Below are positions 18,529-42,614 of a DNA stretch of 48,567 nt, piece by piece. The number at the start of each line of letters is the position of its first letter. The first letter of the stretch is position 1. Location of the stretch: NCBI RefSeq assembly GCF_028688295.1, contig NZ_JAQTYM010000006.1:19261-67827 (forward strand), given 5' to 3'. Below the pieces are notes generated by a model. It was given only the letters and a program-made list of their open reading frames with translations. It had not been told where the DNA came from and ran no database searches. A program made the translations under genes and the position numbers. The stretch is from Sulfuricurvum sp. (GTDB taxonomy: Bacteria; Campylobacterota; Campylobacteria; Campylobacterales; Sulfurimonadaceae).

Positions 18529-18576
18529 TTCTTCTGCACTATTGCATGGATGCAAAAAAATCCGAAGGAAATTATT

Positions 18577-23040: not shown

Positions 23041-23082
23041 ATCTTTTATTGTGATGATAATAATGAGATGGGGGATGTCTAA

Positions 23083-26879: not shown

Positions 26880-27876
26880 TATTCAAATAGAAGCAAGACG
26901 TAGTGAGTTTAAACGTAATGATTCATTGGAATCTTTGCTTACAGAAGTTAATCATTTGATGAATATTGCCGAAAAAACTTTGTTAGACGATCAAACAACT
27001 GCATATCCAATAGTTTTTATTGTTGGACCGCATAGAAGTGGTTCGACACTTATAACACAATGGCTTGCCAACAGTGGATTGGTAGCTTATCCGACAAACT
27101 TGATGTCTCGTTTTTATAAAGCGCCGATTATAGGTGCAAAAATCCAACTATTGCTGACTGATGAGCGTTATAATTATCGCAATGAAATACGTGATTTTAA
27201 CTCGTCTATAGATTTTTATTCGGAAAACGGTAAAACAAAAGGGGCTTTGGCTCCAAATGAGTTTTGGTATTTTTGGAGACGTTTTCTGCCATTTGAAGAG
27301 ATAGATTACCTTTCGGATGATGAGCTTTTCGAAAAAGTAGATATTAAAACCCTTTTAGCTGAATTTGCTGGTTTGACAGATGTTTTTCAAAAGCCTTTCG
27401 CACTCAAAGCAATGATTCTCAACTATAATATCCCTTTTTTAAATAAAATTTTTGATAAAGCAATCTTTATTTATACCAAACGTGATCCTTTGACCAATAT
27501 AGAATCTGCGTTAAAAGCTCGCGAAAAACAATATGGGACAATTAATCAATGGTATTCATTTAAAATTCCAGAATACAATCAATTGAAAGATATGAATCCT
27601 TATGCACAAGTTGCAGGGCAGATATTTTATATAAATAAAGCTGTTGAAAAAGGGTTACAGAATGTTCCTGAACATAAAAAGTTAGTTGTTGAATATGAAG
27701 AGTTCTGTGAAAATCCAAAGAAATTTTATGATCAAATAGTTGGTATGTTAAAATCATATGGTTGTGTAATAGAAAGAGCGTATGAGGGTGATGAAAAGTT
27801 TAATGTGACACGGAAAAGTGTACAAGATGAGAATATTTTAAAATCGTATAACTTTTTTTCTAAGATGGATAACTGA
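26872..27876 (+). CDS. Sulfotransferase-family protein
   Basis: A 334-residue protein with the 5'-phosphosulfate-binding loop of PAPS-dependent sulfotransferases (VGPHRSGSTLITQWL, about 51-65). A later segment (IYTKRDPLTNIESALKAR) fits the 3'-phosphate-binding strand and helix. Such enzymes move a sulfo group from PAPS to a hydroxyl or amino group of a sugar or lipid. Inside a flagellar glycan cassette this suggests sulfated sugars, which would be unusual for flagellin. Some members of this broad family are not sulfotransferases, so activity should be treated as a prediction. Its ATG lies inside the end of the preceding gene. Confidence 0.85.
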   Translation: MNNIQIEARRSEFKRNDSLESLLTEVNHLMNIAEKTLLDDQTTAYPIVFIVGPHRSGSTLITQWLANSGLVAYPTNLMSRFYKAPIIGAKIQLLLTDERYNYRNEIRDFNSSIDFYSENGKTKGALAPNEFWYFWRRFLPFEEIDYLSDDELFEKVDIKTLLAEFAGLTDVFQKPFALKAMILNYNIPFLNKIFDKAIFIYTKRDPLTNIESALKAREKQYGTINQWYSFKIPEYNQLKDMNPYAQVAGQIFYINKAVEKGLQNVPEHKKLVVEYEEFCENPKKFYDQIVGMLKSYGCVIERAYEGDEKFNVTRKSVQDENILKSYNFFSKMDN

Positions 27877-27937
27877 TGATATTTATTGTTAGAAATCAAA
27901 TAAAGCCCATGAAATTATTACACATGAAACAAAAAAT

Positions 27938-28807
27938 ATGAATTCTCAGCATCCTTATATGTTTGCAATTTTTGCTCCCAGTTTTGATTCATCAAGCGGT
28001 GGATGTATCGTATTGCATAAGTTATGTGATATTTTAAATCAACTAGGCTATCAAGCTTATCTATATACTTTTGGCACAAAAATAGAAAAGTATATAGTAA
28101 ACCAAAAATATACTACACCTTTAATAGACAGGTCTTTTTTTCATCAAAATATTCAAAATTTTATAGTTGTATATCCAGAAATAATTTCGGGGAATCCTCT
28201 AAAAGCTCCGAATGTTGTAAGATGGCTTTTGCATAAACCAGGGTTTTTCACTCATGAAATTGATTTTGGTGAAAATGATTATATACTTGGATTTAGTCCA
28301 TTCTCATATCAAAATCCAGATTTTAAGATACATGACAAGCTATTAATTCTAGAAGGAAATCTGGATATTTTTAAAAACTATCATTTTTCAAAACGGGAAG
28401 GAAGTTGTTATATAAAGCGAAAAAATCCTAATGCCATAATTGTACATGATATGGAAAATAGTATTGAAATCGTAGATACAACACCATCTTCCGCATTAGC
28501 AGAATTATTCAATAAAAAAATATTTTTTTATTGCTATGATCCATATACTTTTTTATGTATTCAGGCAGCATTGTGCGGATGTATTCCTGTGATCATCCCA
28601 TGTCACAATATGAGTAAGGAAGAATGGCGAAAAAGTATAAGAAGTTATAATGGTATATCGTATGGTTTTGATGATATAGCTCATGCTACTTCTACTCAAT
28701 ATCTTGTTCGGCTTGAAATTGAAGAGGTTGAACAAAATAATAAGCGCTTTGTTGATGCATTTTATTGGAAGGTAAGTAAGTTTTTTATGATGGATCGCTC
28801 ATCATAG
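27938..28807 (+). CDS. Glycosyltransferase-like protein
   Basis: A 289-residue soluble protein with the look of a GT-B glycosyltransferase. The N-terminal half starts MFAIFAPSFDSSSGGCIVLHKLCDIL, similar to the acceptor domain of GT4-like enzymes with a Gly-rich loop. VVYPEIISGNPL and VVRWLLHKPG occur in related glycosyltransferases from surface polysaccharide clusters. The C-terminal half has FYCYDPYTFLCIQAALCGCIPVIIP, equivalent to the donor-binding region. It is short for the family (typically 330 to 400). No clear ribosome-binding site is seen; it lies 61 bases after the sulfotransferase gene. Donor and acceptor are unknown. Confidence 0.75.
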   Translation: MNSQHPYMFAIFAPSFDSSSGGCIVLHKLCDILNQLGYQAYLYTFGTKIEKYIVNQKYTTPLIDRSFFHQNIQNFIVVYPEIISGNPLKAPNVVRWLLHKPGFFTHEIDFGENDYILGFSPFSYQNPDFKIHDKLLILEGNLDIFKNYHFSKREGSCYIKRKNPNAIIVHDMENSIEIVDTTPSSALAELFNKKIFFYCYDPYTFLCIQAALCGCIPVIIPCHNMSKEEWRKSIRSYNGISYGFDDIAHATSTQYLVRLEIEEVEQNNKRFVDAFYWKVSKFFMMDRSS

Positions 28808-28878
28808 TATACGGGCTATAAACTTTTTTAATAGATATCCATATGAATGACAAATTACAGATGTAAAAGTGTAGATTA

Positions 28879-30357
28879 ATGATTAAACAAACACCAAGAA
28901 TTCGTTTAAGCTCAAGTGAAAAAAGTCATATTCGTATGATCAACTTTTTTGATCATCATGATGAGGGGGATAAACTTTGTATTTATTCCCACTTTGACCC
29001 TGACGGTATCATTGATGCTTATGTCATTTTCGCATTGAGGTCAATGAAAAAAATGGGGTATGCGATTGTTTTTGTGACAACATCAGAAAAGATTGCGTAT
29101 CGGGAAATAAATAAAGTAAGGCGGTACGTTAAAGTTTTAGTGGTAAAAAAGAATATAGGATACGATTTCATGTCATGGAAAGCAGGATTGTATGCGGTTG
29201 GTGATTATACGAAATATAAGCAAATAATCCATATGAATGATAGTATCTTTTATCCACTTTCTAACCCTAAAAAAATGTTTGACAGCATGAAAAAACGAAG
29301 GCTTGATTTTTGGGGGCTTGCTGATAGTTACAATATACAATATCATATACAAAGTTATTTTTGGGTCTTTGAACAAAAGATTGTTAAGAGCTATTTTTAC
29401 AATCTTTTTTGGAACACTTGTAGAGTAATTGAGAATAAGCAGAAAATAATTGATTCGTATGAATTGGAATGTGCAAAAAAGGCCATAAAAGCTGGATTTA
29501 CCGTTGGTGGATTTGTTGAATTTGATAAGTTGCTCGAATCCGTTTCAAAAAAATTTAATGATGTTGAAAAAAAACTTTTTGCACAGGTAAATCCGGCGTA
29601 TTATCTATGGGATACGATGATCGAAATACATGATGCACCCTTCTTGAAAAAAAATATTCTTTTAAGAACCCATTCCGATTATAATCCTGAATCATCTATG
29701 TGGCATCTGTTTGTAAATCAGTATACGTACAATCCTTCTTTGATTGAACGTTATATTGAAAGAATTGATAAAAAAGGGACGATTTTATATTTTGCAGAAG
29801 AGGTATTTAACTATTTTTTAGAACAAATTGAGAGTCTTAAACAATACAATTGCGTTGTCATTTATGGTTATGGGCAGGTTGGCCGTTTCGTGCATTGTCT
29901 GACAACGAATATTGTCGGAGCGGTAGATGGTAATGAAAAAAATTCAAATATATTGAATCGTTTTTATGGAGTTGATATTGAGGTTAAGCCGAAGGAAAGT
30001 ATAGTGAATATGGATTATGATAAAATTGTAATCTGCTCTATTGGATATGAAAAGGAAGCGATTAAGTCACTTGATTCTTTGGGTATTACGGAAGAAAAAT
30101 TAATACTATTGTCACAAAAGCATAAAGATCTTATACCGTTCGTACATATTTTACGGACTATTATTCGTCTCCACTTTATTGAGCTGAAAAGTGAGAGAGA
30201 AATCTATGTAACGTCAAGTAATGATGTATTTATAACTTATGTACGAGCATTTCTAAACTTTATCGGGCTTTATCCAAAATTTATTCTTCCTGATAATGTT
30301 AGGATAGAGTGCCCTGGGCAACTTTTTCAGTTTGAAATTTTTTCAAAACACAAATAA
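28879..30357 (+). CDS. RgpF-like protein with added Rossmann domain
   Basis: A 492-residue protein. The N-terminal part (about 30-260) matches the rhamnan-synthesis F (RgpF) family: CIYSHFDPDGIIDAYV, KKNIGYDFMSWKAGL, and IHMNDSIFYPL. RgpF proteins are predicted glycosyltransferases of surface polysaccharide clusters. From about residue 325 a Rossmann-type domain follows, with the glycine-rich loop IYGYGQVGRF and IVICSIGYEKEAI, resembling nucleotide-binding domains that join some polysaccharide enzymes. The last 70 residues are not recognised. The final 59 bases overlap the convergent methyltransferase gene. Confidence 0.82.
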   Translation: MIKQTPRIRLSSSEKSHIRMINFFDHHDEGDKLCIYSHFDPDGIIDAYVIFALRSMKKMGYAIVFVTTSEKIAYREINKVRRYVKVLVVKKNIGYDFMSWKAGLYAVGDYTKYKQIIHMNDSIFYPLSNPKKMFDSMKKRRLDFWGLADSYNIQYHIQSYFWVFEQKIVKSYFYNLFWNTCRVIENKQKIIDSYELECAKKAIKAGFTVGGFVEFDKLLESVSKKFNDVEKKLFAQVNPAYYLWDTMIEIHDAPFLKKNILLRTHSDYNPESSMWHLFVNQYTYNPSLIERYIERIDKKGTILYFAEEVFNYFLEQIESLKQYNCVVIYGYGQVGRFVHCLTTNIVGAVDGNEKNSNILNRFYGVDIEVKPKESIVNMDYDKIVICSIGYEKEAIKSLDSLGITEEKLILLSQKHKDLIPFVHILRTIIRLHFIELKSEREIYVTSSNDVFITYVRAFLNFIGLYPKFILPDNVRIECPGQLFQFEIFSKHK

Positions 30358-31108
30358 ATTCAATACCATTGGGAACAATTTCAAGAAGAGTTGCATTGAT
30401 AAACCCATCATTAATAGCATTTTTTATATGTTTTTCAAAGGTTGAACTTTCCCAAACATGAAAATGGGTATCCTTGTGTTCTTGAAGAAGTTTTTCTGTT
30501 TTGATTAAAAGCTCTTCATCATCATAATGAGCAGTATGTTTTAAAAAGTCTATATAGTGTTCTTTTCGATTTTTTTCAGATCCATTAAGGTATTCATCTT
30601 TAAGATGTTCATACGTCGTGAGCTCTCTTGTTGCGTCAAAAGTGTACCGTTTATCAGGAACTGCATACAGAATGTAGCCATCTGGTTTAATGACGCGGAG
30701 ATGATTCTGAATGGTTGTAATCACATCTTCTACGTGCTCAATCATATGATTTGCGATTAAAAAAGCGTAATATTCAGAGGGAACCTTAGAAAGTTTTTGT
30801 CCATCGTCAAGTGTAAGAGAGTAAACACAATTTAGATCATTGATTTCTGGAAAACGATTTTTTAAATCATCAATAGACGCTTGATCGATATAGTCGGCTT
30901 GACATCCTAATGGAAGGTGATTAGGAGCATGGAAGCCACCTAGTTCAACTCCTCTTGTTGCTCCGGAGAGATATTTTTCTGATAAAATATAGCGTTGATT
31001 TGCTGGTCTTGGATTTGCAAGATTTCTGACAAAGAAATTATAATCATCTCGTAATGCTTCTGAAGAAAGAAGAAGATGTTCACTTGGGAGATATTTAGCT
31101 TTACGCAT
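30299..31108 (-). CDS. SAM-dependent methyltransferase (class I)
   Basis: A 269-residue predicted methyltransferase. The Rossmann core starts with GVELGGFHAPN in place of the usual DxGxG loop. Acidic and hydrophobic segments DYIDQAS, FLIANHMIEHV (motif like the methyltransferase-11 SHVLEHV), and LRVIKPDGYILYAVPDKRYTFD follow. The protein is probably a sugar or lipid methyltransferase and is the last gene of the long minus-strand pse operon. It is convergent with the RgpF-like gene and overlaps it by 59 bases. The start is an ATG with AAGGAAC upstream, 29 bases after the CDP-glycerol transferase-like gene. Confidence 0.85.
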   Translation of the reverse strand: MRKAKYLPSEHLLLSSEALRDDYNFFVRNLANPRPANQRYILSEKYLSGATRGVELGGFHAPNHLPLGCQADYIDQASIDDLKNRFPEINDLNCVYSLTLDDGQKLSKVPSEYYAFLIANHMIEHVEDVITTIQNHLRVIKPDGYILYAVPDKRYTFDATRELTTYEHLKDEYLNGSEKNRKEHYIDFLKHTAHYDDEELLIKTEKLLQEHKDTHFHVWESSTFEKHIKNAINDGFINATLLEIVPNGIEFICVLKKFQTEKVAQGTLS

Positions 31109-31137: not shown

Positions 31138-32616
31138 TTATAATATGACACTGCTTTTGATTAAATTTTTAACGATTCGTTCGGATGAATACATATCTTG
31201 ATAGGCGAAAAAAAGATCTTTTATATTTGTACGTTGAGAAGCAAAACTTTCTTTGTCTTGAACAATGGACTGCAGTATGACTATTAAATCATTTTGCGTT
31301 TTAATTTTCCCCCCTGGAGCATTTTTTTCATAGTCATACACAAATCCCCCCATGTTGCCGCTGTACTCTTCGTAATCGTAGTCAAAAAATATAATAGGAC
31401 GATTTAATAACAGAAAGTCAAAATAGACTGAAGAATAATCGGTGATTAAAATATCGGCATATTTGAGGATCGGATAGACATCTCCCTGGGATGAATGAAA
31501 GTGGATATGTTCGTACCCTCCTTCTGGAGCAAAACTCTGGTAAAACTGCATGATAAAAGGATGCAATTTGACAATCAAAATAGCATTCAGAATTTTAAGA
31601 GAATGGTCTAATAGGTTAAAGTCCAGAGGGATGAGAGGTGTTTTTGGATTTTCCAACTCTGTTGAGGCTTCGCGATGGGTTGGCATGTAAACGATTACTT
31701 TGGTTTGTGTGCCGAAGGTTGATTTAGCCAATTTGTATAGATTGTGGTCACATAAAAGCAGATCATACTCACTATGCTCTTTCAGTAAAAGATCATTTCT
31801 AGGATAGCCGTAATCTTTGTACTCTTTGGCGACAATGACATGAGAAAGAGAAGTTTCGTTAACGTAATCAGACGTACTCACTAGATAATCGTAGGTAATA
31901 TCGGTAAGTCTGTTCATCCGTTTGAGGGGAATGCCATGCCACATTTGGATGGTTTTTTGGTGTGGGCTGAGATGTTTAAGGGGTTCGGTGTAGTTCCCCT
32001 GATCCATAATGAGATTTTTCCCCCATGCAATATTCCAAATTGCTTTCAAGCTTAAAAGAGGAGCGACAGGGAAACCATGAATTTTGAATTGGCTCAGTTG
32101 ATGCTGATTGTCTGTGAGGAGAACTGTATTCGTATAACGAGTCGCAGTATGAAGATAGAGCATTTTTGTGTTGGTTCCGACAAATGATTTGGCGATAAAA
32201 ACATTTTTTGAACGTTTGAATCCGAATGCATCGATGAAGCGGGTCAGTAAAGAGAGAAATTTCATCCGTAGCTTTTGCGGTATTGCCGCATATTTTTGGC
32301 GACTAATATCACGCTCATCAAAAAAGTGGTATCGGTTGTCGATGATATCGATTTTGATTAGTTTGGATTTTGGGATGTGAACGGTATAGTCATCATAAAT
32401 ACTGGAAAAGTGGTTTTGAGAGAGGATGAGAATGGCATCAAAAGGGGTCTCTATTATCGTATCCAATTTGAATATTTCATCTCCCTCTTTGGTTTTATCG
32501 ATAAATCCTAAACATTCGGCATTAGGATAGTATTCACAAAAACTTTTCTGAAACATAGTTGTGCGAGGTGTGTGTGGGGCGATATAGACCCGTTTGCCGT
32601 TAAAATCAAACGCCAT
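31138..32616 (-). CDS. CDP-glycerol glycerophosphotransferase-like protein
   Basis: A 492-residue protein of the TagB/TagF family. These enzymes move glycerol phosphate from CDP-glycerol to a sugar or to a growing teichoic-acid-like chain. Family motifs are MWHGIPLKRMNR, YGYPRNDLLL, VIVYMPTHRE, KLHPFI, and ITDYSSVYFDFLLLNRPIIFF. The first 190 residues are divergent and could hold the acceptor-binding part. No membrane segment is clear, so it is peripheral or soluble. It follows directly after the TagD-like gene (one-base overlap, TGATG), which should supply its substrate. Confidence 0.9.
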   Translation of the reverse strand: MAFDFNGKRVYIAPHTPRTTMFQKSFCEYYPNAECLGFIDKTKEGDEIFKLDTIIETPFDAILILSQNHFSSIYDDYTVHIPKSKLIKIDIIDNRYHFFDERDISRQKYAAIPQKLRMKFLSLLTRFIDAFGFKRSKNVFIAKSFVGTNTKMLYLHTATRYTNTVLLTDNQHQLSQFKIHGFPVAPLLSLKAIWNIAWGKNLIMDQGNYTEPLKHLSPHQKTIQMWHGIPLKRMNRLTDITYDYLVSTSDYVNETSLSHVIVAKEYKDYGYPRNDLLLKEHSEYDLLLCDHNLYKLAKSTFGTQTKVIVYMPTHREASTELENPKTPLIPLDFNLLDHSLKILNAILIVKLHPFIMQFYQSFAPEGGYEHIHFHSSQGDVYPILKYADILITDYSSVYFDFLLLNRPIIFFDYDYEEYSGNMGGFVYDYEKNAPGGKIKTQNDLIVILQSIVQDKESFASQRTNIKDLFFAYQDMYSSERIVKNLIKSSVIL

Positions 32617-33035
32617 CAGAGCTGTACCTCGTTTTCGAGTAAAAAGAGATCGAGAGATTTTTTGATTTCTGTAGTAGATATATCTTCAGTACGAGGAAGA
32701 TAGACCACTTTGCAGTAAGGGGATAGAAAATCAAATTTTCCCTCCCAATCATTTCCCATCGCAAAGATATCGACATTGTGATTGCGGATATCATCGATTT
32801 TTTGTTCCCAATTCTCTTCGGGAATAACGAGATCGACCCCTTTGATTGCACTCACGATTTGGGCACGCTGTTCGTAAGGAATCAGCGTTTTCTTCCCTTT
32901 GACTGTATTAAACTCATCGGTAGAAACAGCGACGATGAGTTTTTCACCGAGTGCACTGAGACGCTGGAGGAGATTGAGATGACCGATATGGAACATATCG
33001 AATGTTCCGTAGGTTAAAACGATCTTTGGCTTCAT
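32616..33035 (-). CDS. tagD: Glycerol-3-phosphate cytidylyltransferase (TagD-like)
   Basis: A 139-residue nucleotidyltransferase that makes CDP-glycerol from CTP and sn-glycerol-3-phosphate. The HxGH site is H16-I-G-H19 in YGTFDMFHIGHLNLL. TagD-specific segments follow: VAVSTDEFN, VIPEENWEQK, FAMGNDWEGKFDFL, and RTEDISTTEIK. The similarity is close enough to name it TagD rather than a generic cytidylyltransferase. It overlaps the preceding ligase gene by four bases (ATGA). With the next gene it forms a compact glycerol-phosphate transfer pair, known from teichoic acids of Gram-positive bacteria and from some capsules of Gram-negative ones. Confidence 0.93.
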   Translation of the reverse strand: MKPKIVLTYGTFDMFHIGHLNLLQRLSALGEKLIVAVSTDEFNTVKGKKTLIPYEQRAQIVSAIKGVDLVIPEENWEQKIDDIRNHNVDIFAMGNDWEGKFDFLSPYCKVVYLPRTEDISTTEIKKSLDLFLLENEVQL

Positions 33036-34369
33036 CGGTTGATCCTCATTTTCTTAAATCGTTCACTGAAGTTAGTATGATCGACCACTTTGACATGGGT
33101 TGGAATTTTATAGGGGTCAAGTTTATTTTTGCAAAATTGTCGGATTGTTTTTTTGATCCCCTCGGTATCAGAGGGATCATGTAAAACAACTTCTACTGCG
33201 ACACTTTGCCCCGTAATTGCATTGGGGATTGCATAGACGAGGGCATCATCGATTTGACTCATCTGCATCAAAACCGATTCCACTTCGATGGGGAGGACTT
33301 TTTCTCCTCCGACGTTGATAACCTCTTTGCTCCGCCCGATAATCCGAAGATAGCCGTTCTCCCCCTCTTCGACCAGATCGCCTGTTTTAAACCAACCATC
33401 TTCTGTGAAACTCTCCATAGATGCATTGAGGTAGCCGAGGATTTGGGTATGGCTGCGCAGCCACAGTTCACCGGATTCAATTCGGTAATCCAGATCAGGA
33501 TCGTCGATTTTCATAAAAGTGGAGTTGGATGAGAGGGAGCTAGTAGTGGCGATGCCTGTCTCACTGGTTCCGAAGGTTTGTAAAAATTTGACACGGGGAA
33601 AAGCAGTTTTTAAACGCTCCAGAAGTGTATCACTCATCGCTTCGGTTCCATAGGTAATCATCCGCAAAGAGGAGAGATTGAATCGATTTTGGGCATCGGC
33701 TATCATCATCAGATTTAAAAAAGTGGGTGAAGAGGGGAGTACCGCAATGGCATATTTTTCAATCAAGTGGCAAATTTCCTCGACATTGCGCGAAGCGGGG
33801 ATAATCATAGTCGCACCCATGGAGAGAATGTTAAGGAGTGTATTGAGTCCACCGATGTGATCGAACATTAAAAAAAGCAATAGATTCATTGATTTGGGTT
33901 TTTTACCGCTATAGCTTTGGGCGAGGGTATCAAGATCGTGGATCATCGCTTTTGGTTTTCCGGTACTGCCACTGCTGAAAAGTACCAGACCGCTATGTCC
34001 TCTCAAACGGAGAGTTTCGATGATCGGATGGTTTTTTTCCTGATGAAGTTCTTGAACGAAGTACTTCCCATCACGGATTCGAATTGCTTTGTTGGTATAC
34101 GATTCACTCAGTTTATCTTCAATCTCGCTCTCTAGCGTGGCAGTGATCGGGACAATGATGTTATGGTTTTTCATTAATGCCAAAAATAGAGCAACCGATT
34201 CAAACGAATAATCCGAGAGGATGGCGATTACCTCTCCAGGAACTATGCCAGAAATAACGCTATCTTGAAGCATTTGGATGGTGTGTGAGAGATGAGTATA
34301 GGTATAGGTTCCCTCATTGCTGATAACGCAGTTTTTATTACTAAAAGCGCTAAAATCCATCCACTCCAT
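33032..34369 (-). CDS. ANL-superfamily acyl-activating ligase
   Basis: A 445-residue AMP-forming ligase. It has the P-loop LVLFSSGSTGKPKAMIHD, the A5-type FGTSETG segment, the KTGDLVEE box, and the hinge and catalytic lysine region (GRSKEVINVGGEKV near residue 355, final FKKMRINR). It activates a carboxylic acid as acyl-AMP and passes it to CoA or to a carrier protein. It is short for an acyl-CoA synthetase (about 500 or more). The acyl carrier protein gene two genes upstream is the likely acceptor. It has a GGAGAG site and lies nine bases after the reductase gene. The acid used is unknown. Confidence 0.9.
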   Translation of the reverse strand: MEWMDFSAFSNKNCVISNEGTYTYTHLSHTIQMLQDSVISGIVPGEVIAILSDYSFESVALFLALMKNHNIIVPITATLESEIEDKLSESYTNKAIRIRDGKYFVQELHQEKNHPIIETLRLRGHSGLVLFSSGSTGKPKAMIHDLDTLAQSYSGKKPKSMNLLLFLMFDHIGGLNTLLNILSMGATMIIPASRNVEEICHLIEKYAIAVLPSSPTFLNLMMIADAQNRFNLSSLRMITYGTEAMSDTLLERLKTAFPRVKFLQTFGTSETGIATTSSLSSNSTFMKIDDPDLDYRIESGELWLRSHTQILGYLNASMESFTEDGWFKTGDLVEEGENGYLRIIGRSKEVINVGGEKVLPIEVESVLMQMSQIDDALVYAIPNAITGQSVAVEVVLHDPSDTEGIKKTIRQFCKNKLDPYKIPTHVKVVDHTNFSERFKKMRINR

Positions 34370-34378
34370 GATCTCTCC

Positions 34379-35080
34379 CTATCGACTGACTCCGCCCAGA
34401 TAGAGAATCTGGCCGGTGAGAAAGTCGCTTTTTTCATCGACAAAGAAATCGACTACATGGGTAATATCGTCAAATGTTCCCATACGTTTGAGAGTTTGTT
34501 TTTCGATCAGAGCATCGATTTTTTCTTTTGGAACCGCTTTGATCAGATCAGTTTGGATAGGGGTCGGGCCAATGGCATTGACCGTGATCTTGTAGTTAGA
34601 GAGCTCTTTGGAAGTGGTCTGGGTGAGGTTTTCGATAGCGGCTTTGGCACTGGCATAAATCGCCTCCCCCTCAAGATGAAGAGGAGTGGCGATAGTGGTA
34701 AAATTGATAATCCTTCCCCGTTCTTGTTTCATCATCACTTTCGCACACTCGCGCATCATGAGCGCCGTTCCTAAAACATTGACACGGAATAGTTTTTCCA
34801 TCGTTGAGAGGGGGGTGGTGATAAAATGGTTCATTGAGGCGATACCGGCGTTGTTGATCAGGACATCGAGTCGTCCAAACTCTTTTTTGAGACTGCGTAT
34901 CATAGATATAACGGCGGATTCATCGGTAATATCGAGGCAAAAATGACGATAGGAATTATGTGTAATACTTCCCTCTTCTCTTGAACACCCAATGACGGTA
35001 TTTCCAAGCATGAGATAATGGCGTGCTAATGCTTCTCCTATCCCTTTGCGGGTTCCGGTAATCAGGATCACTTTAGTCAT
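34379..35080 (-). CDS. Short-chain dehydrogenase/reductase, FabG-like
   Basis: A classical SDR of 233 residues. It has the NAD(P)-binding TGTRKGIG loop (9-16), the NNAG motif, and the catalytic Y142 and K146 (YASAK). At the usual catalytic serine position the protein has threonines (T128/T129), a change that occurs in some active SDRs. The frame is open to 35122, but the ATG at 35080, with the usual SDR N-terminus MTKVILITG, overlaps the carrier protein gene by eight bases and is preferred. It is next to an acyl carrier protein and an acyl ligase, so it could reduce a carrier-bound 3-ketoacyl group; a sugar-modifying role like that of Campylobacter PtmA is an alternative. Confidence 0.88.
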   Translation of the reverse strand: MTKVILITGTRKGIGEALARHYLMLGNTVIGCSREEGSITHNSYRHFCLDITDESAVISMIRSLKKEFGRLDVLINNAGIASMNHFITTPLSTMEKLFRVNVLGTALMMRECAKVMMKQERGRIINFTTIATPLHLEGEAIYASAKAAIENLTQTTSKELSNYKITVNAIGPTPIQTDLIKAVPKEKIDALIEKQTLKRMGTFDDITHVVDFFVDEKSDFLTGQILYLGGVSR

Positions 35081-35363
35081 TGAGTAGTTTTTCGACGTAA
35101 TTGCAGAGTGAGCCGACATCACGAAACGGTGAGGTGCGCTGACTCATGGCACGCTCATCGGCTAGCACGATAGCGCGCTCAAATGTATCGTATATTTTTT
35201 CTTCGACATCGGCGATTAAGGAGACGAGGGCGAGGCTATCGAGTGCTCCGCCGTTTCCGAAAAGCTTGGTCTCTTCGCTCACGTGTTGTAATGTCTCATT
35301 TTCTAGCTCTTCACCCATGTCACGAACGGCAGAGGAGATAATTTCAAAAATGTGCTCTTTCAT
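35073..35363 (-). CDS. Acyl carrier protein
   Basis: A 96-residue carrier protein. The 4'-phosphopantetheine attachment serine is S43 in GGALDSLALVSLI, with the acidic helix IADVEEKI following, as expected for an ACP. It is not the fatty-acid AcpP (which has the DSLDTVELVM motif) and is longer than it. It lies in the pse operon, with ATGA overlaps to the upstream N-acyltransferase and an eight-base overlap to the reductase downstream. So it probably carries an acyl unit made or modified by the local ligase and reductase. Confidence 0.9.
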   Translation of the reverse strand: MKEHIFEIISSAVRDMGEELENETLQHVSEETKLFGNGGALDSLALVSLIADVEEKIYDTFERAIVLADERAMSQRTSPFRDVGSLCNYVEKLLND

Positions 35364-35902
35364 AAGCTCTCCAGATTGATGGGATAGTGTGTGGCGTATT
35401 GTAGAATATTTTTGAGGATTTTTTTCTCTTTTTGAGCGCTCCAGAGCATTTCATCCAATTGCATAAGGGTAAAATCGTCGCTTTCACAGAATGGTTTAAA
35501 TCCTAATTGTCGGTTGAAAGCGATTGCTGGGATATTATTGGTCCGGATATGCGACTGGAGTGTTGTTACACCCAAATGATTAAAACAGCGATCGATAAAA
35601 TAGAGAGTTACCGAAGCAATAACCCAAACAGAGGTGTTGGGATCGAAAAAGATTCCCCATGTAGCCGTTTCATCATTGTTTTGGATGAGGTGGATCCCGC
35701 CGCAGAGGGTATTGGTTTCAAACACAGCGTAATAGATTTTTCCGCTACAGGTTTTGAGTGATTCAATCCATCGGATATGATCGGTAAAATCGATCTCCTC
35801 TATATTCGTCGAAGCGTTGCGGATGGTTGTGAGATTACGGATATTTAAAAGATCCTGATGTTCTTGAGCCGTTAAATCGGTGTAATTTTTGAGATGTATC
35901 AT
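35360..35902 (-). CDS. GNAT N-acyltransferase, PseH-like
   Basis: A 180-residue GNAT-fold acyltransferase. Helix and strand segments fit the fold: IRNLTTIRNASTN near the start, the TWGIFFDPN strand region, VTLYFIDRCFNHLGV, and the FNRQLGF late motif. PseH-type enzymes acetylate the 4-amino group of UDP-4-amino-4,6-dideoxy-GlcNAc-altrosamine. It has that position in the operon, directly after pseI, and is the only PseH candidate here. The adjacent carrier protein, with which it is translationally coupled, suggests that its donor could be an acyl-ACP other than acetyl-CoA. I therefore leave the symbol blank. Confidence 0.82.
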   Translation of the reverse strand: MIHLKNYTDLTAQEHQDLLNIRNLTTIRNASTNIEEIDFTDHIRWIESLKTCSGKIYYAVFETNTLCGGIHLIQNNDETATWGIFFDPNTSVWVIASVTLYFIDRCFNHLGVTTLQSHIRTNNIPAIAFNRQLGFKPFCESDDFTLMQLDEMLWSAQKEKKILKNILQYATHYPINLESL

Positions 35903-36927
35903 ATCAGCTTTACGGAGACCATTGTTTTATCCAGAGGGGTACCGCGTTTAATGCAAGTAATTGCATGGGTATGCAGTAGTGTGTTTAAATGACGGGGATG
36001 AAGCCCCTCTCCTGGACGAATACTTCGGGTATTTTCAGCAGTAAATTTCTCTCCTTCAGCGATATCACGAATCGCAAAAAGACTACGTGCATACTTTTTA
36101 TCGCCCCCTTTGTAATCGGGATAACCAATCATTTTTTCAACACTGCGAATACTTTTAACTAAAGCAGTGAGCTCATCGGGGCTTAGAGAGAAAGCTTGAT
36201 CGGCAGAGGGGACGGAGGGGTCTGGGGTGAAATGTTTTTCAATGATTTTCGCTCCCAGGGCTACACCCGCGATACAGGCTTCAAGTCCTAGCGTATGATC
36301 GGAAAGACCGACAGTGACACCGAATTTTTGAGCCATATCGGGAATCGTAGAGAGATTCATCGATTCGGGTGGAGCGGGATAGGAGCTAGTACATTTGAGT
36401 AATGCGATCTGATTGTTTCCGACACTTCGACATGCTTCGATAGCGCGGAGAATATCCTCTTCGTTGGCAATTCCGGTGGAGATAAGGATCGGTTTTCTTT
36501 TGGCAGCGACATGTTGGATAAGGGGTATATCGGTAATCTCGAAACTGGCAATTTTATATGCAGGAACATTGAGTGATTCGAGTAGATCGGCTCCAGATAT
36601 ATCAAATGCTGAAGAGAAGAGGATAATCCCTAACTCATCTGCATAGGCTTTGAGCGGTTCATGCCATGACATCGGCATATGTGCACGTTCATAGAGATCA
36701 TAGAGATATTCACTGCTCCACAGATGCCCAGCTTTGAAACGCTCCTCTTTGACATCAATCGTGAGAGAATCAGCAGTATAAGTCTGAAGTTTGATGGCAT
36801 CGGCACCTGCTTCGTAGGCGAGTTTGACAGCTTTTTTTGCGAGATTAAAATCTTGATTATGATTGGCGGAGAGTTCGGCGATGATAAAGGTTTTTCCCTC
36901 ATTAAAATCAAAATGGGCTATTTTCAT
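35899..36927 (-). CDS. pseI: Pseudaminic acid synthase
   Basis: PseI condenses 2,4-diacetamido-2,4,6-trideoxy-L-altrose with phosphoenolpyruvate to give pseudaminic acid. The NeuB-type TIM barrel (about 10-260) begins TFIIAELSANHNQDF and contains ADAIKLQTYTADSLTID, PAYKIASFEI, and GLSDHTLG. The C-terminal SAF domain (about 280-342) has LFAIRDIAEGEKFTAENTRSIRPGEG. The AELSANHNQDFNLA and TYTADSLTID wording is typical of PseI rather than of NeuB or LegI. The start at 36927 overlaps the PseG stop (ATGA), which is preferred to an upstream ATG at 36948. Length 342 fits the family. Confidence 0.95.
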   Translation of the reverse strand: MKIAHFDFNEGKTFIIAELSANHNQDFNLAKKAVKLAYEAGADAIKLQTYTADSLTIDVKEERFKAGHLWSSEYLYDLYERAHMPMSWHEPLKAYADELGIILFSSAFDISGADLLESLNVPAYKIASFEITDIPLIQHVAAKRKPILISTGIANEEDILRAIEACRSVGNNQIALLKCTSSYPAPPESMNLSTIPDMAQKFGVTVGLSDHTLGLEACIAGVALGAKIIEKHFTPDPSVPSADQAFSLSPDELTALVKSIRSVEKMIGYPDYKGGDKKYARSLFAIRDIAEGEKFTAENTRSIRPGEGLHPRHLNTLLHTHAITCIKRGTPLDKTMVSVKLI

Positions 36928-37754
36928 GTTATATCCTCCATAACGCAATAACCGTTTATTTTTAAATACTCTACCATATCGTCCTGATTGGGTGCACTTT
37001 GAAGTGCACTGAAGGGGAGTCCCATGTAAATCGCCTCATGAGCGATGGTGCTAGGGGTGAGGATCGCTTTTTTACTTTGGTTCATGATGCGTGCGACATC
37101 GTTGGAATTAATAAACAGATGAACTTTTGGATGAGCTTTAGCGTAAGTTTGCAGTGCATCTAAATGGTGGTTTGCAGTGGTGGTCAAAATCGCGATTTGG
37201 ATATTTTCAGAAACACTTTGCATAATCTTACCAATCTGATCGGTCGTATCTGCTCCCCCCATCGCAATGAGAAGATCGTAGACTTTTTCTCTAACGATTT
37301 TTTGTTCGGCAATAAACTCTTCACGGATCAGAGTGTGCTCACTGCCGCACCACAGGATACATTCGATTGGCACCAAGGAGGTGTATTTTTTAGGGTCTGC
37401 GTAGATATTATGGTTGAGAAGAATATCACAATGGTGCTTTTGGTAGGTGTCATCAAGAGCAATAATTTCTACGGCAGTTTGCTCTTTGATCTGTTTTTCG
37501 AAGTGTGCATTGATTCCGTAATGGTCGAATATAACACGTTCAAACCCCTCCGTTTGGATAAGTGTTATGAGCTCCTCAGGGGTGTTTGTAGTGAGTGTAT
37601 ATAAAGGATAGGATATCTGCTCGATAATATTCCCTTCCAATTCCATACAAGCGAAAAAGATCTTCCCTCCCAGCCGTTTGGCAAGAACGAGATCACGCAT
37701 GATATGTCCTACTCCGATCGATGAGGAGCTGTCGGAACGGATAAGGGTTTTCAT
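36924..37754 (-). CDS. pseG: UDP-2,4-diacetamido-2,4,6-trideoxy-beta-L-altropyranose hydrolase
   Basis: PseG removes UDP from the bis-acetamido sugar before PseI acts. The GT-B-like protein has 276 residues. The catalytic H17 lies in SSSIGVGHIMRD, the known position in Campylobacter PseG. Further family segments are FDHYGINAHFE, IIALDDTYQKHHCDILLNH, and LIAMGGADTTD. The pathway order in the operon and the ATGA overlaps on both sides support the assignment. Confidence 0.95.
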   Translation of the reverse strand: MKTLIRSDSSSSIGVGHIMRDLVLAKRLGGKIFFACMELEGNIIEQISYPLYTLTTNTPEELITLIQTEGFERVIFDHYGINAHFEKQIKEQTAVEIIALDDTYQKHHCDILLNHNIYADPKKYTSLVPIECILWCGSEHTLIREEFIAEQKIVREKVYDLLIAMGGADTTDQIGKIMQSVSENIQIAILTTTANHHLDALQTYAKAHPKVHLFINSNDVARIMNQSKKAILTPSTIAHEAIYMGLPFSALQSAPNQDDMVEYLKINGYCVMEDIT

Positions 37755-38434
37755 AAATGGAGAGCTTTGTACATCAGTTCTGCTCGAATCCAGTCTTCGG
37801 GGGTGTCTATATCTTGCACGAGATGGCGAGGGAGAATGATAGGAATGCTATCTGAACCGAACATCGGCTGATTGGATTTATGTGCGAGTTTACTCCAGTA
37901 AAATTGTCCCGCATCTTGATACGCCTCTTCGAGATCTTGACTCCGTTTTAAAGCATTTTCAGGCCAGAACATTTCACATCGATTTTGCGGAGTAATTTTG
38001 AAAGTTCGTTGAATTGGAAAAGGCATAGAAGTGCATGAAAAAGCATGAACAGCATCTGATTTTTTTAATTTTTCAAAACCTTCACTAAGATAGGGTGCTT
38101 GCAATAAAGGTGCAGTTGCATAGATAGTACAAACATAATCAAATTTTTCACCCTGATCTTTCAACCATGAGAGCGTATGATGGATAACTGCACCTGTTCC
38201 CGTCAAATCGTCGCTAAGCTCTTTCGGACGTAAAAAAGGGACTTCAGCCCCATAGCTGAGGGCTATCTTAGCGATCTCTTCATCGTCAGTGCTTACAATA
38301 ATTTTATCAAAAAGTGTGGATGTTTTAGCCGCCTCAATACTGTAAACGATCATCGGTTTTCCGCAAAAATCTTTAATATTCTTTCGTGGAATACGTTTAC
38401 TGCCGCCACGGGCAGGGATTATGGCGATATTCAA
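37751..38434 (-). CDS. pseF: Pseudaminic acid cytidylyltransferase
   Basis: PseF activates pseudaminic acid with CTP to CMP-pseudaminic acid, the donor used by Maf. The nucleotide-binding start is NIAIIPARGGSKRIPRKN, followed by KIIVSTDDEEIA and DTPEDWIRAE. The frame opens at a GTG (38443), but a TTG at 38434 fits better: it overlaps the pseC stop (TTGA), has GAGGG eight bases upstream, and gives the N-terminus MNIAIIPARGG. Length is then 227 residues. Either start leaves the enzyme whole. ATGA overlap with pseG follows. Confidence 0.94.
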   Translation of the reverse strand: MNIAIIPARGGSKRIPRKNIKDFCGKPMIVYSIEAAKTSTLFDKIIVSTDDEEIAKIALSYGAEVPFLRPKELSDDLTGTGAVIHHTLSWLKDQGEKFDYVCTIYATAPLLQAPYLSEGFEKLKKSDAVHAFSCTSMPFPIQRTFKITPQNRCEMFWPENALKRSQDLEEAYQDAGQFYWSKLAHKSNQPMFGSDSIPIILPRHLVQDIDTPEDWIRAELMYKALHL

Positions 38435-39558
38435 AATGAACACCCTCGATAGGAATATTTTTCGATCACTTCTAGAACGGTATCGACCACGACTTTGGCA
38501 TCCTCCATAGACATCTTCTGATGGCAGGGGATAGAGAGCTCCGAGCGGTAAAAGTGCTCGGTAGTCATTAAACGTATTTCACCGAAACGTTCTTTGTAAA
38601 AGCTGTTTTTGTAAATAGGTTTATAATGAACCTGCACTCCAAGAGCACGTGATTGAAGTTCTTCAAAAATTTCCTCTTTGACACAATGGAGCTCAGGATT
38701 CAGTAGTAGGGGATAAAGGTGGCGCCCGCTTTGTTCATTATTAGGAATTGTAATTGTGGAGAAGAGTGGATGTTTGTCGAATTTTTCATCATAATAACGG
38801 GCAATATGTTCACGTATATTGATGAAACGATCGAGTTTGTGCAGTTGTGAAAGCCCAAGTGCGGCGGCAAATTCGGTGAGACGATAGTTATGCCCAAGAC
38901 TCACCATATCTGAATTCCAAAGATGCTTTTTGATGATACCGTGAGAGCGAAAGAGTCTAAGCCGCGACGCAAATTCCTCATTGTTGGTTACGATAGCTCC
39001 TCCCTCGCCGGTAGTGATCGGTTTGATCGCATGGAAGCTAAAGACAGTCATATCTGAAAATGAGCCGATTTTACGGTGATTAATATCGCTTCCCAATGCA
39101 TGAGAAGCATCTTCGATCACAAGAAGATTGTGTTTTTTGGCGATGGTTTTGATCGTTTCGATAGCGACTGGTTTACCGGCAAAATCGACAGGAACGATGG
39201 CACGGGTTCGGGAAGTGATAAGTGATTCGATGAGGTTTTCATCAATGTTACCGTCCATTTTCACATCACAGAAAATAGGTTTTGCTCCCAGTGCAACTGC
39301 CATATTCGAGGTCGCAACAAAACTGATAGGGGTGGTGATGATCTCATCGTTTTCTTTGAGTTCTGCAACTGCATATGCCCCTAAAAGAGCAGATGTAGCA
39401 GAGTTGAATGTAACACAGTAGCGTGCGCCGACATACTCGGCAATTGCTTCTTCAAACTCCTCGACTTTGGAGCCTTGAGTGAGGTGAGAACTGCGTAAGA
39501 CCTCAACAACAGCGGCAATATCATCCTCTTCGATGAACTGGGTCGAATAGGGCAACAC
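38431..39558 (-). CDS. pseC: UDP-4-amino-4,6-dideoxy-N-acetyl-beta-L-altrosamine transaminase
   Basis: PseC aminates the 4-keto sugar made by PseB, using PLP and glutamate. It has 375 residues. The catalytic lysine is K179 in SFHAIKPITTGEGG, and other DegT motifs are FNSATSALLGAY, PISFVATSN, and IEDASHALGS. The beginning, LPYSTQFIEEDDIAAVVEVL, and HLTQGSKVEEFE match PseC. The start is GTG at 39558, two bases after the PseB stop. It ends in a four-base overlap with pseF. Confidence 0.96.
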   Translation of the reverse strand: MLPYSTQFIEEDDIAAVVEVLRSSHLTQGSKVEEFEEAIAEYVGARYCVTFNSATSALLGAYAVAELKENDEIITTPISFVATSNMAVALGAKPIFCDVKMDGNIDENLIESLITSRTRAIVPVDFAGKPVAIETIKTIAKKHNLLVIEDASHALGSDINHRKIGSFSDMTVFSFHAIKPITTGEGGAIVTNNEEFASRLRLFRSHGIIKKHLWNSDMVSLGHNYRLTEFAAALGLSQLHKLDRFINIREHIARYYDEKFDKHPLFSTITIPNNEQSGRHLYPLLLNPELHCVKEEIFEELQSRALGVQVHYKPIYKNSFYKERFGEIRLMTTEHFYRSELSIPCHQKMSMEDAKVVVDTVLEVIEKYSYRGCSF

Positions 39559-39560
39559 GA

Positions 39561-40568
<1,008 letters not shown>

Positions 40569-40634: not shown

Positions 40635-42614
40635 TTAGCCGTTGACTGCCATACTGATCTGTTGGCTGAGTGAGGAGAATTGATTGTTGAGTTTGCTGAT
40701 AATGGCATCATATTCAATAAAGCGTGATGTCATTGATTCATAGCGTGCATCGAGTAGGGCTTGACTTCGTGTTTTATTTGCAGTTAACGTTTTTGTCTCT
40801 TCTTTTGATGCATCGGTCAACATTGTCATAATTCCGCTGTAACCAGTGTAACGATCTAGCCAACTATTGAGTTGAGTAAATATACCATCTTCCCTTGAAG
40901 ACTCATTTCCATTTGTGTCGTAGGTGATTAATCCGCTGAAAAATTTTTCTGATTCAGCTGCGTCTTCTTTGAATTTATTAGCAAAGGTTGTTGCGTTGAA
41001 ACTCATAGTACCCGTTTCGTTAAGATCGATTCCGAACTGCGATAGTGAATAGCCATTGCTGTTTAATGATGTCAATAGTTTGGTGATTTCGCGGCGGATT
41101 CCCGTGATGGTACTATCACCATTGAAAATGCCTACTTTGCCATTTTCAACATCAGCTAAAGTCATAGAATTAAGTTGATCCATGAGCGTGTTATAGCTTG
41201 AAACCATGTTACTCATTTCATTACCGATTACATCGACATCTTGGGTTATATCAATATTGGTGCTGTCGCCATTTTGGAGTAGATTGATCGTGACTCCGGT
41301 AATAAGATCGGCAATTTCGTTGCTGCTGCGGGTGATCGTAATACCGTTGTATTTAAAACTGGCATCCGATGCCTGTTGTATCACTTCTGCTGGCGCATAG
41401 TCTATCATGCCGGTTGTCAGTTTTGTATCGAGAAATCCTCCGGTATCGGAAATGCTAAACGTAGCATCATTACCCGTAGCCGTTGATTGGAGGATGAGTT
41501 GGTACGAGCTTCCTACTTGTTTTATTGACGCAACGCTGCTTCCTACTGCGGTATTGATATTATCTGATAATTGTTGCAGGGTTGTCGTTCCATCATAAGC
41601 AATATTGTAAGTCGTTCCATTCATGGTAATGTTATAGGTTCCTGCAACACTTGGGGTCATATCGGTCGTTGATGCAAGAGCAGTGGAATCTACGGTAGTA
41701 AATGGGGTTGTGATGGTGTAGGGGGTTCCCGCAGTGTTGGCACTAATCGTGACATCATTACCGTTTATGGTTGCAGTATAGAGACCACTTGCATCGATTG
41801 CATTTTTGAAATTTGTTAGTGTTGTTGTATGATCGGTATCAAAATCAGCATTGTAAAGAACACCTCCGATCTCGACCGATATTCCCCCATCCGTTAGGGG
41901 TTGTGAGAGCGAAAATTTGGTTGATTGTGTCACTGAACTGGATGTAACCAAAGAACTGGTAGCAGTAAACGACCCGCTCCCTTTGATATCTTTTTGTTGA
42001 TAGAGTGCATAGTCTAAAGATCCGCCGGTTGAATCGGATAAGGTGATATTTTGAGACGTCCCTGTTGCATTGGAAGTTAAAACCATTCGATAATCATCAG
42101 TTCCTACTTGGAGAATTGATGCTTTGATTTTATCTCCCGCTTTGTTATTAATAGCACTTGCCAAATCTTCGAGCGTTGTAGAGGATGTATAATCGATACT
42201 ATAAGTTTTTCCATCGATTGCAAGAGACATGGCCCCTGTTCCATTGGCAACAAGACTGGTTTTAGAAGCAAATCTACCCGATTGACTAACGTATTGTTTA
42301 GCGAGTTCAGTATCACTGATAGAGAACGATTGAACCGAAACCCCAGCATCTGCAGTCACTTTTACTCCATCTGTTGTACCATTGACACTCCGTTTTTGAA
42401 ACGTTATATCTTCATCCAATGCGCTAACACTGCTTTTGAACGTAGAGAGGAGAGATTTTAGTAAATCTAATGCACTGCTTTTTTGCTCAGCAAGGGTGAT
42501 TTTATTCGTGATAGGGGTAATGCTTAATGCTTCATCATTTGCTTTTAGTTTATCAATAACATCTGATGTCAAAACACCAGACCCGATCCCGAGTGAATTA
42601 ATGGTTCCAGCCAT
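40635..42614 (-). CDS. fliD: Flagellar filament cap protein FliD (hook-associated protein 2)
   Basis: FliD caps the filament tip and helps flagellin subunits fold into place. It has 659 residues. The N-terminal coiled-coil (about 1-75) begins MAGTINSLGIGSGV. The C-terminal FliD_C domain (about 420-659) has GVTINLLQNGDS, NTLMDQLNSMT and a terminal coiled-coil ending SSLSQQISMAVNG. The centre holds three related beta-modules (about 127-203, 244-305 and 325-400), each with an IDGKTYxIDY-like strand and a TTLxxLxxxIN helix, like the Flagellin_IN motif. AAGGATTT precedes the ATG, and a sigma-28 promoter lies just upstream. Confidence 0.95.
   Translation of the reverse strand: MAGTINSLGIGSGVLTSDVIDKLKANDEALSITPITNKITLAEQKSSALDLLKSLLSTFKSSVSALDEDITFQKRSVNGTTDGVKVTADAGVSVQSFSISDTELAKQYVSQSGRFASKTSLVANGTGAMSLAIDGKTYSIDYTSSTTLEDLASAINNKAGDKIKASILQVGTDDYRMVLTSNATGTSQNITLSDSTGGSLDYALYQQKDIKGSGSFTATSSLVTSSSVTQSTKFSLSQPLTDGGISVEIGGVLYNADFDTDHTTTLTNFKNAIDASGLYTATINGNDVTISANTAGTPYTITTPFTTVDSTALASTTDMTPSVAGTYNITMNGTTYNIAYDGTTTLQQLSDNINTAVGSSVASIKQVGSSYQLILQSTATGNDATFSISDTGGFLDTKLTTGMIDYAPAEVIQQASDASFKYNGITITRSSNEIADLITGVTINLLQNGDSTNIDITQDVDVIGNEMSNMVSSYNTLMDQLNSMTLADVENGKVGIFNGDSTITGIRREITKLLTSLNSNGYSLSQFGIDLNETGTMSFNATTFANKFKEDAAESEKFFSGLITYDTNGNESSREDGIFTQLNSWLDRYTGYSGIMTMLTDASKEETKTLTANKTRSQALLDARYESMTSRFIEYDAIISKLNNQFSSLSQQISMAVNG

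Follow-up and report, generated by a model that had tools for sequence, protein, structure and literature searches.

A putative acyl carrier protein-fed variant of the PseH step in a Sulfuricurvum pseudaminic acid operon

A 48,567-nucleotide window of the 2.6-Mb draft genome of Sulfuricurvum sp. contains a flagellar pseudaminic acid (Pse) operon in which the Pse synthase gene, pseI, is followed by four genes encoding a PseH-like acyltransferase of the GNAT family, an acyl carrier protein (ACP), a short-chain dehydrogenase/reductase (SDR) and an acid ligase of the ANL family. All coordinates given below are positions in this window. We propose, with a probability of roughly 0.7, that these four genes form the acylation step of the operon and replace the acetyl-CoA-dependent PseH.

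In the proposed mechanism, the ANL ligase would adenylate a small acid and load it onto the dedicated ACP, at its phosphopantetheine serine. The SDR would reduce the acyl carbonyl, either on the carrier or after transfer, as proposed in Pseudomonas. The GNAT would acylate UDP-4-amino-4,6-dideoxy-beta-L-AltNAc on its 4-amino group, and this acylated amine would become N7 of Pse after the action of PseG, PseI and PseF. We infer these catalytic activities, the acyl-ACP donor, the Pse acceptor in this strain and flagellin as the target.

Conserved association of the GNAT with ACP, SDR and ANL

The association of the four genes was examined in a phylum sample of 397 genomes from 68 genera. An ANL search at an E-value threshold of 1e-40 returned 75 matches in 63 genomes and 17 genera. 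Among 20 neighbourhoods chosen by their ANL gene, ACP, SDR and ANL stood in this order in 19 and were directly adjacent in 17; the exceptions were L034, where no ACP was called, L036, with one inserted gene, and L037, with a gap (L and G numbers denote loci and genomes, respectively). The complete GNAT-ACP-SDR-ANL set stood beside pse genes in seven of the 20.

Since these loci had been picked by ANL, a profile of 12 module-linked GNATs was searched in reverse against the same 397 genomes. It gave 23 full-length matches of at least 131 bits and then two truncated ones (109.8 and 106.1 bits), while matches of 100.6 bits or less were canonical PseH wherever compared. Of the full-length GNATs, 21 lie 3-1,613 bp from a module ANL, and the other two (L250 and L251, in genomes G266 and G039) have ACP, ANL and SDR genes of divergent subfamilies beside them. 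All three partners were present in each of the 21 neighbourhoods that were read, the window included; G020 and G024 were judged only by their GNAT-ANL distances of 11 and 1,024 bp. The original prediction had coupled this acyltransferase to the ACP, SDR and ANL and suggested a genome search for the gene order next to pseI. The coupling is borne out as a conserved group with its catalytic residues kept, and the search found a PseI-type gene (above 300 bits) in 14 of the 21 neighbourhoods. Three more had a NeuB-type gene of 182-197 bits, and in the remaining four no PseI/NeuB-type gene was recognised with the window queries. The best sign that selection, and not descent alone, may keep the set together comes from L250 and L251, because their partners are non-orthologous.

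The converse does not hold, as only 21 of the 63 ANL-bearing genomes have a GNAT of this clade and 42 do not; G157 and G215, whose ANL homologues are close (61 and 57% identity), gave no PseH-like match at 1e-8. Two further observations concern the individual genes. Truncated window-type GNATs of 123 and 129 amino acids lie beside canonical PseH in pse operons (L252, 6473-6844; L253, 8969-9358) and are perhaps relics of a lost set. A second ANL in tandem, no more than about 300 bp from the first, occurs in G119 (L049, L103), G128, G166, G190, G267, G281 and G296 (family f2).

Apparent replacement of canonical PseH

PseH scored above its curated cut-off in 220 of the 397 genomes, and none did so in the genome of the window. 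Fourteen clade members lie close to a PseI-type gene; 13 of them come from genomes without a PseH over the cut-off, and one (G079) has both. In 12 of the 14 (G000, G008, G030, G109, G127, G203, G235, G276, G318, G323, G374 and G394), the best PseH match reached 58.5-87.3 bits against a cut-off of 93.1, and in G039 the sole PseH-type match had an E-value of 4.0e-12. The earlier suggestion that the acyl-transfer step of this pse operon differs from the usual one gains support, with the GNAT taking the place of canonical PseH in 13 of the 14 cases.

Nine other genomes of the window's genus were sampled. Canonical PseH is present in six of them, the remaining three gave no PseH match at 1e-10, and all nine lack the ANL. 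Four of these congeners were read, and each carries fliD, pseB, pseC, pseF, pseG, PseH and pseI in order (with no pseB label in L201). Both arrangements occur in genus g14, where L211 and L212 have pseB-C-F-G-PseH before pseI, and L204, L206 and L207 have pseB-C-F-G-I-GNAT-ACP-SDR-ANL. Loci L193-L195 of a sister genus carry, between pseG and pseI, a GNAT, a gene of 357-365 amino acids, an ACP-like gene and a gene of 518-519 amino acids; in L193 the two unnamed genes are KAS III and FkbH (245.0 bits, cut-off 146.65). We presume that the FkbH-type gene takes part in an acyl-ACP supply. The same operon site thus appears to accept a different acyl-ACP supply, because L193-L195 carry GNAT, KAS III, ACP and FkbH-type genes between pseG and pseI. 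Taken together, this looks like a recurring exchange of the PseH step for an apparently locally supplied acyl transfer rather than a one-off. The L193-L195 set might give a glyceryl-type acyl group, for which the di-O-methylglyceric Pse of C. jejuni, cited in PMC3958885, offers a comparison (published systems are cited here and below from excerpts of the papers).

The PseH-like GNAT

Against the PseH equivalog model TIGR03585, the window GNAT scored 63.0 bits in the protein scan and 62.9 when the genome was searched, both short of the 93.1-bit cut-off. In a quick tree without bootstrap, it falls in a clade of 21 rows (SH-aLRT 99), and canonical PseH forms another of 30 rows (SH-aLRT 96). A GNAT fold like that of solved PseH is predicted (pLDDT 93.3), and the first Foldseek match of the model is PseH 4xpl. 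The stretch aligned with the P-loop lacks glycine in the 21 distinct module-linked GNATs of the tree, whereas glycine is kept in the 30 rows of the canonical clade. A glycine is present in the turn just ahead of this stretch in L040 and L046, and the GNATs of L250 and L251, compared by eye, also lack the P-loop glycine. In a profile search with window-type GNATs, the first relative after PseH was FdhC (6.2e-9, 38.9 bits).

The carrier, reductase and ligase

The putative phosphopantetheine attachment site of the ACP is Ser43 in the motif G-A-L-D-S-L, and this serine is kept in 77 of 77 homologues. At 1e-3, neither Pfam nor NCBIfam gave a match to the window ACP; the divergent carriers of L251 and L250 score 25.2 and 19.7 bits, respectively, against a PP-binding cut-off of 20.8. 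A gene of the AcpS family is present in the genome. The catalytic Asn, Ser/Thr, Tyr and Lys of the SDR are kept in 78 of 78 homologues, the second site being Thr in 63 and Ser in 15. Its best sequence matches in the PDB are mostly FabG-type entries, and it scores 157.8 bits against the FabG model NF004198, short of the cut-off of 296.

The ANL has the AMP-binding N domain, the C domain and the A3 loop of its superfamily; PF00501 and PF13193 both score above their cut-offs, and Lys140 and the A10 lysine, Lys439, are each found in 81 of 81 homologues. Its predicted model shows a complete ANL fold (pLDDT 90.4), whose structural matches are tied among CoA ligases, aryl-acid enzymes and amino-acid enzymes. 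Reading the substrate from the structure was abandoned for this tie between substrate classes. A DltA/DltC-like D-alanylation, prompted by the TagD- and TagF-like genes further along the run, was also dropped: the scanned gene run has no match to MBOAT (DltB), and DltA (7vhv) stands far down the profile matches, with 77.9 bits against 122.9 for the best.

Which acyl group

The module most likely makes a short hydroxyacyl-ACP for the amine that becomes N7 of Pse. That the group is 3-hydroxybutyryl made from acetoacetate is a tentative assignment, to which we give somewhat less than even odds. Locus L083 has its ANL overlapping a homologue of FdhC (3.9e-31); next come genes for a methyltransferase, FdtA (177.4 bits) and an aminotransferase of the DegT type. 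FdhC is also the first relative of the window-type GNATs after PseH, and the title of its entry 5ktc names a 3-[(R)-3-hydroxybutanoylamino] sugar product. L130 continues beyond ACP-SDR-ANL with KAS III, another SDR and a GNAT that resembles the L083 acyltransferase (4e-29). Two published systems described below, the P. syringae flagellin sugar (PMC3927599) and the A. baumannii Pse with an (R)-3-hydroxybutanoyl group (PMC9676051), point in the same direction.

The 3-hydroxybutyryl reading predicts a flagellin residue of 360.153 Da, versus 316.127 Da for Pse5Ac7Ac. A Pse derivative of 376.14 Da has been described for A. piscicola AH-3 (PMC7874193), and calculation gives the same mass (376.148 Da) for Pse in which C4H6O3 takes the place of one acetyl. 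This value was not used as proof of the acyl group, since a mass of 403 Da is reported for strain AH-1 (PMC4691044).

Organization of the locus

The genes form one minus-strand run, fliD-pseB-pseC-pseF-pseG-pseI-GNAT-ACP-SDR-ANL-tagD-like-tagF-like-methyltransferase (Table 1), and pseI is the sole NeuB-family match in the draft genome. The pseI/GNAT, GNAT/ACP and ANL/tagD-like junctions are ATGA overlaps, of four bases in the first two cases. The ACP and SDR overlap by eight bases if the SDR starts at ATG 35080, and nine bases separate the SDR end at 34379 from the ANL start at 34369. The SDR probably starts at this ATG rather than at the listed GTG 35122, because most aligned homologues begin at the corresponding Met. 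The layout that the original prediction had described, with GNAT, ACP, SDR and ANL joined by ATGA, an overlap and nine bases inside a pse operon, is right to the base. The extent is amended: the four genes lie where they had been placed, but the run continues past 33032 into the tagD-like, tagF-like and methyltransferase genes.

Table 1. Genes of the pse run and flagellins of the window
Feature	Position	Strand	Evidence
Tandem flagellin, first	16915-18402	+	418 identities, 77 mismatches and 23 gap positions with the second
Tandem flagellin, second	18550-20106	+	As above
SAM (S-adenosylmethionine) methyltransferase, end of gene run	30299..31108	-	Methyltransf_23 33.6 bits
tagF-like CDP-glycerol glycerophosphotransferase	31138..32616	-	PF04464 202 bits
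tagD-like glycerol-3-phosphate cytidylyltransferase	32616..33035	-	TIGR01518 172.7 bits (cut-off 165.4)
ANL acid ligase, putative acyl-ACP synthetase	33032..34369	-	PF00501 113.1 bits, PF13193 49.1 bits
SDR reductase	34379..35080 (shared start; open reading frame from GTG 35122)	-	PF13561 155.2 bits, PF00106 151.2 bits
ACP	35073..35363	-	GALDSL motif
PseH-like GNAT, putative ACP-fed N-acyltransferase	35360..35902	-	TIGR03585 63.0 bits (below cut-off 93.1)
pseI (pseudaminic acid synthase)	35899..36948	-	TIGR03586 430.9 bits (cut-off 340.25)
pseG (UDP-sugar hydrolase)	36924..37754	-	TIGR03590 218.2 bits (cut-off 153.55)
pseF (CMP-Pse synthetase)	37751..38443	-	TIGR03584 341.3 bits (cut-off 205.7)
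pseC (4-aminotransferase)	38431..39558	-	TIGR03588 488.4 bits (cut-off 423.5)
pseB (UDP-GlcNAc 4,6-dehydratase/5-epimerase)	39561..40568	-	Polysacc_synt_2 353.3 bits; scanned with Pfam only, named from position and Pfam family
fliD (filament cap), gene before pseB	40635..42614	-	FliD_C 135.7 bits, FliD_N 44.1 bits

The same window also holds the two flagellin genes and a Maf-type protein. The tagD-like and tagF-like genes after the ANL (31138-33035, minus strand) suggest glycerol-phosphate on the flagellar glycan, and the tagD-like gene probably serves a separate glycan decoration within the same run. In L040/L060 (one genome), L055, L057 and L206, too, the gene after the ANL bears a TagD label, and L251 has TagD/TagF labels nearby. 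Next to the run, positions 22001-30000 have a GC content of 30-31%, compared with 35-46% in 2-kb windows up to 10 kb on either side. This block encodes an FkbM methyltransferase, a DegT aminotransferase, WbqC, a sulfotransferase-like protein and RgpF, and the final gene of the block shares 59 bases with the tail of the pse run. No tRNA was found in the window; a promoter scan gave results at chance level (33 found versus 32.2 expected) and was not used.

Wider distribution of the ACP-SDR-ANL module

A tblastn scan of named genomes (1e-3) returned 291 ANL-related stretches, of which the best 80 were kept (L054-L133); some of these records are the same genomes as in the phylum sample, so the two samples overlap. 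Among these best 80 of 291, ACP, SDR and ANL are adjacent on one strand in 65, and labels assigned by similarity to the window proteins mark a DegT-type aminotransferase in 32 and a NeuB-type gene in 16. By their record labels, the 80 loci span Campylobacterota, Bacteroidota, Verrucomicrobiota, Pseudomonadota, Myxococcota, Acidobacteriota, Actinomycetota, Cyanobacteria, Bacillota and Spirochaetota, as well as further groups. Many of the records are metagenome bins and may carry a wrong taxon label, L057 being an example. One strain that has the set is Sulfurospirillum sp. SCADC (L061).

The module is a unit wider than its partnership with the GNAT, and elsewhere adjoins hexapeptide, MBOAT and other enzymes. 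Among the genes directly upstream (62 scanned) are GNATs (nine for the best-matched model), SDRs (eight), P450s (seven) and MBOATs (three). Those directly downstream (61 scanned) include KAS III (ten), hexapeptide transferases (six) and FAD halogenases (four). The last four match tryptophan-halogenase/CmlS_C models and L125 is among the seven P450 cases; such loci are possible natural-product clusters with carrier-bound tailoring.

The original prediction had thought the arrangement unusual. This does not stand: the ANL occurs in 17 of the 68 genera, similar genes have been published, and the set is also found in the pse locus L218 of a Vibrio relative, where flagellin, FliD-like, FliS, pse genes, ACP, SDR, ANL, GNAT, a glycosyltransferase and LuxC lie in a row. 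Across 394 genomes of the order to which the Vibrio locus L089 belongs, a match to the ANL profile turned up in four, L089's own included. We consider it an even bet that ACP-SDR-ANL is a portable acyl-ACP supply unit across many phyla, that one PseH-like GNAT clade is its dedicated partner, and that pse operons have more than once given up acetyl-CoA-dependent PseH in favour of N7 acylation from an ACP. There would then be three or more supply sets: the window type and the LuxE/LuxC type, both with this GNAT clade, and the FkbH-KAS III type with another GNAT group.

Counter-evidence and alternative explanations

Several observations weigh against replacement of PseH by an ACP-fed enzyme. The 21 co-occurrences are not independent events, as the GNATs of the tree form one clade. 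Genome G079 keeps a canonical PseH (130.8 bits) within its pse genes, and its other GNAT lies beside ACP-SDR-ANL. Amino acids are a possible substrate of the ANL in view of its invariant Asp. Three further points concern the donor: FdhC (5ktc) has no glycine P-loop yet was crystallised with CoA; the L218 GNAT, beside ACP-SDR-ANL in a pse locus, retains Q-R-N-I-G-G; and a review calls the P-loop of H. pylori PseH atypical (PMC4964394). Loss of the P-loop as proof of ACP use was downgraded to weak evidence by FdhC, L218 and the tree. The assignment of ACP as the donor therefore rests mainly on gene association, because FdhC, the atypical H. pylori P-loop and L218 undercut the P-loop argument.

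The GNAT might still use acetyl-CoA or another acyl-CoA, with ACP, SDR and ANL building an acyl group destined for a different acceptor within the same glycan, such as an O-acyl or glycerol-phosphate decoration. The CoA bound by FdhC, the next relative after PseH, fits this idea, as do the TagD-like and TagF-like genes after the ANL, the MBOAT and hexapeptide enzymes that adjoin the module elsewhere and the 42 of 63 ANL-bearing genomes without the GNAT clade. We nonetheless judge it unlikely, as the three partners accompany the GNAT in 21 of 21 read neighbourhoods while a TagD label adjoins the ANL in few, and a PseH over the cut-off is missing from 13 of the 14 pse cases. It is rather improbable that the ligase loads an amino acid, so that the sugar receives an aminoacyl group and the SDR acts elsewhere. 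Asp170 of the ANL, invariant in 81 of 81 homologues, aligns with an Asn of a DhbE-type enzyme at what we take to be the site of the amino-acid-binding Asp of nonribosomal peptide synthetase (NRPS) domains, and the structural matches include NRPS-type adenylation domains and prolyl-carrier ligases. These matches, however, are tied with CoA ligases of aromatic acids, the register is unsure given that the neighbouring His171 is equally invariant (81 of 81), and a FabG-like SDR with an intact tetrad would better suit a ketoacyl group.

The order of steps could be reversed, with the GNAT transferring acetoacetyl from the ACP and the SDR then reducing the amide-linked keto group. The P. syringae precursor dTDP-N-acetoacetylviosamine and the loss of the modified sugar on vioR deletion (PMC3927599) speak for this order, which we hold to be unlikely but quite conceivable; the SDR stays by ACP and ANL (65 of 80 loci) while the acyltransferase type varies, a better fit to a carrier-bound substrate. 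Alternatively, the genes could produce a fatty chain for lipidation of the flagellar glycan, a role put forward for the islands of Aeromonas and enterobacteria, in which ACP, FabG, ligase, LuxE and LuxC are read as fatty-acid synthesis for a possible liposugar (PMC7874193, PMC4875605). This seems very improbable for the window: no ketosynthase is found among the scanned genes of the run, the adjoining acyltransferase is of the sugar/polyamine N-acyltransferase type, and the Pse derivative of A. piscicola AH-3, at 376.14 Da, is too light for a long chain.

Implications

The N-acyl groups of Pse are part of the surface met by antibodies, phages and glycan-binding proteins. If the proposed ACP-fed acylation is correct, a non-acetyl acyl group would change the chemistry of the flagellar surface, and genome sequence would predict which bacteria bear non-acetyl Pse. 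It would also give a function to the unexplained 'fatty acid' genes of flagellar islands. Finally, the GNAT sugar acyltransferases would gain acyl-ACP-dependent members, and a ready cassette for new sugar derivatives would be at hand.

Comparison with known systems

The window GNAT differs from PseH, an acetyl-CoA N-acetyltransferase (PDB 4xpl, 4ri1), in its sub-cut-off score, its separate clade, its lack of a P-loop glycine and its ACP, SDR and ANL neighbours. It resembles FdhC (PDB 5ktc), a nucleotide-sugar GNAT by its entry title with a hydroxybutanoyl product, in having no glycine P-loop. FdhC nonetheless acts on another sugar, has CoA in its crystal and is only distant kin (38.9 bits).

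Similar genes have been described in flagellar islands. In the group II islands of Aeromonas (98 strains), ACP, 3-oxoacyl-ACP reductase, AMP-dependent synthetase, luxE and luxC lie between pse genes, and a liposugar was suggested (PMC7874193). The flagellar islands of 71-73 enterobacterial strains carry ACP, FabG, ligase and LuxE genes, for which the same idea was put forward (PMC4875605). Common to these islands and the window are ACP, 3-oxoacyl-ACP reductase and AMP-synthetase among flagellin-glycan genes, a likeness drawn from the published descriptions only. Unlike the window, the islands have luxE and luxC, list pseH as present and are read as fatty-acid or liposugar synthesis. No LuxE or LuxC was found within the window's gene run, to which the search was limited and in which TagD-like, TagF-like and methyltransferase genes follow the ANL. 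Locus L251 (7953-14679, minus strand), with pseG-ACP-SDR-ANL-LuxE-LuxC-GNAT-pseI, bridges the window-type GNAT and the LuxE/LuxC cassette of the Aeromonas/enterobacterial kind.

Local acyl supply for other sugars is also on record. The viosamine island of P. syringae, vioA-M-T-S-B-R-acp, clusters ACP and 3-oxoacyl-ACP reductase genes, and its product is an N-(3-hydroxy-1-oxobutyl) sugar on flagellin that is lost when the reductase gene vioR is deleted (PMC3927599). As in the window, an ACP and a FabG-type reductase are thus provided locally for an N-acyl flagellin sugar. The island differs in its KAS III (VioS) in place of the ANL, its acyltransferase VioB (213 amino acids) and its sugar, viosamine; no KAS III was found in the window's gene run, to which that scan was limited. 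The O-antigen genes wfpC-G of F. psychrophilum are predicted to transfer dihydroxyhexanoyl from an ACP to a UDP-4-amino sugar (PMC6519341). They share with the window a cluster-specific ACP and reductase beside an acyltransferase, but have two ketosynthases instead of the ANL and a PglD-type acyltransferase. In A. baumannii, the capsule module psaABCGHF leads to Pse5Ac7R, where R is (R)-3-hydroxybutanoyl, and psaABCDEF to Pse5Ac7Ac (PMC9676051). The acyl step of the Pse pathway is swapped there as well, although the module as named has no ACP, SDR or ANL. Further candidates for comparison are the ACP genes of the C. jejuni flagellar locus, of which PMC13130089 gave no mention, the P. aeruginosa PAK island as cited in PMC3927599, butirosin-type ACP transfer and the islands of Shewanella. 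Among the open-access papers listed for PseH or pseudaminic acid together with acyl carrier protein or hydroxybutyryl, titles and abstract openings contain no proposal of an ACP-fed PseH. Within the limits of these excerpts, ACP, reductase and ligase genes in flagellar islands are already in print, and the candidate ACP-fed variant of the PseH step is what is new here.

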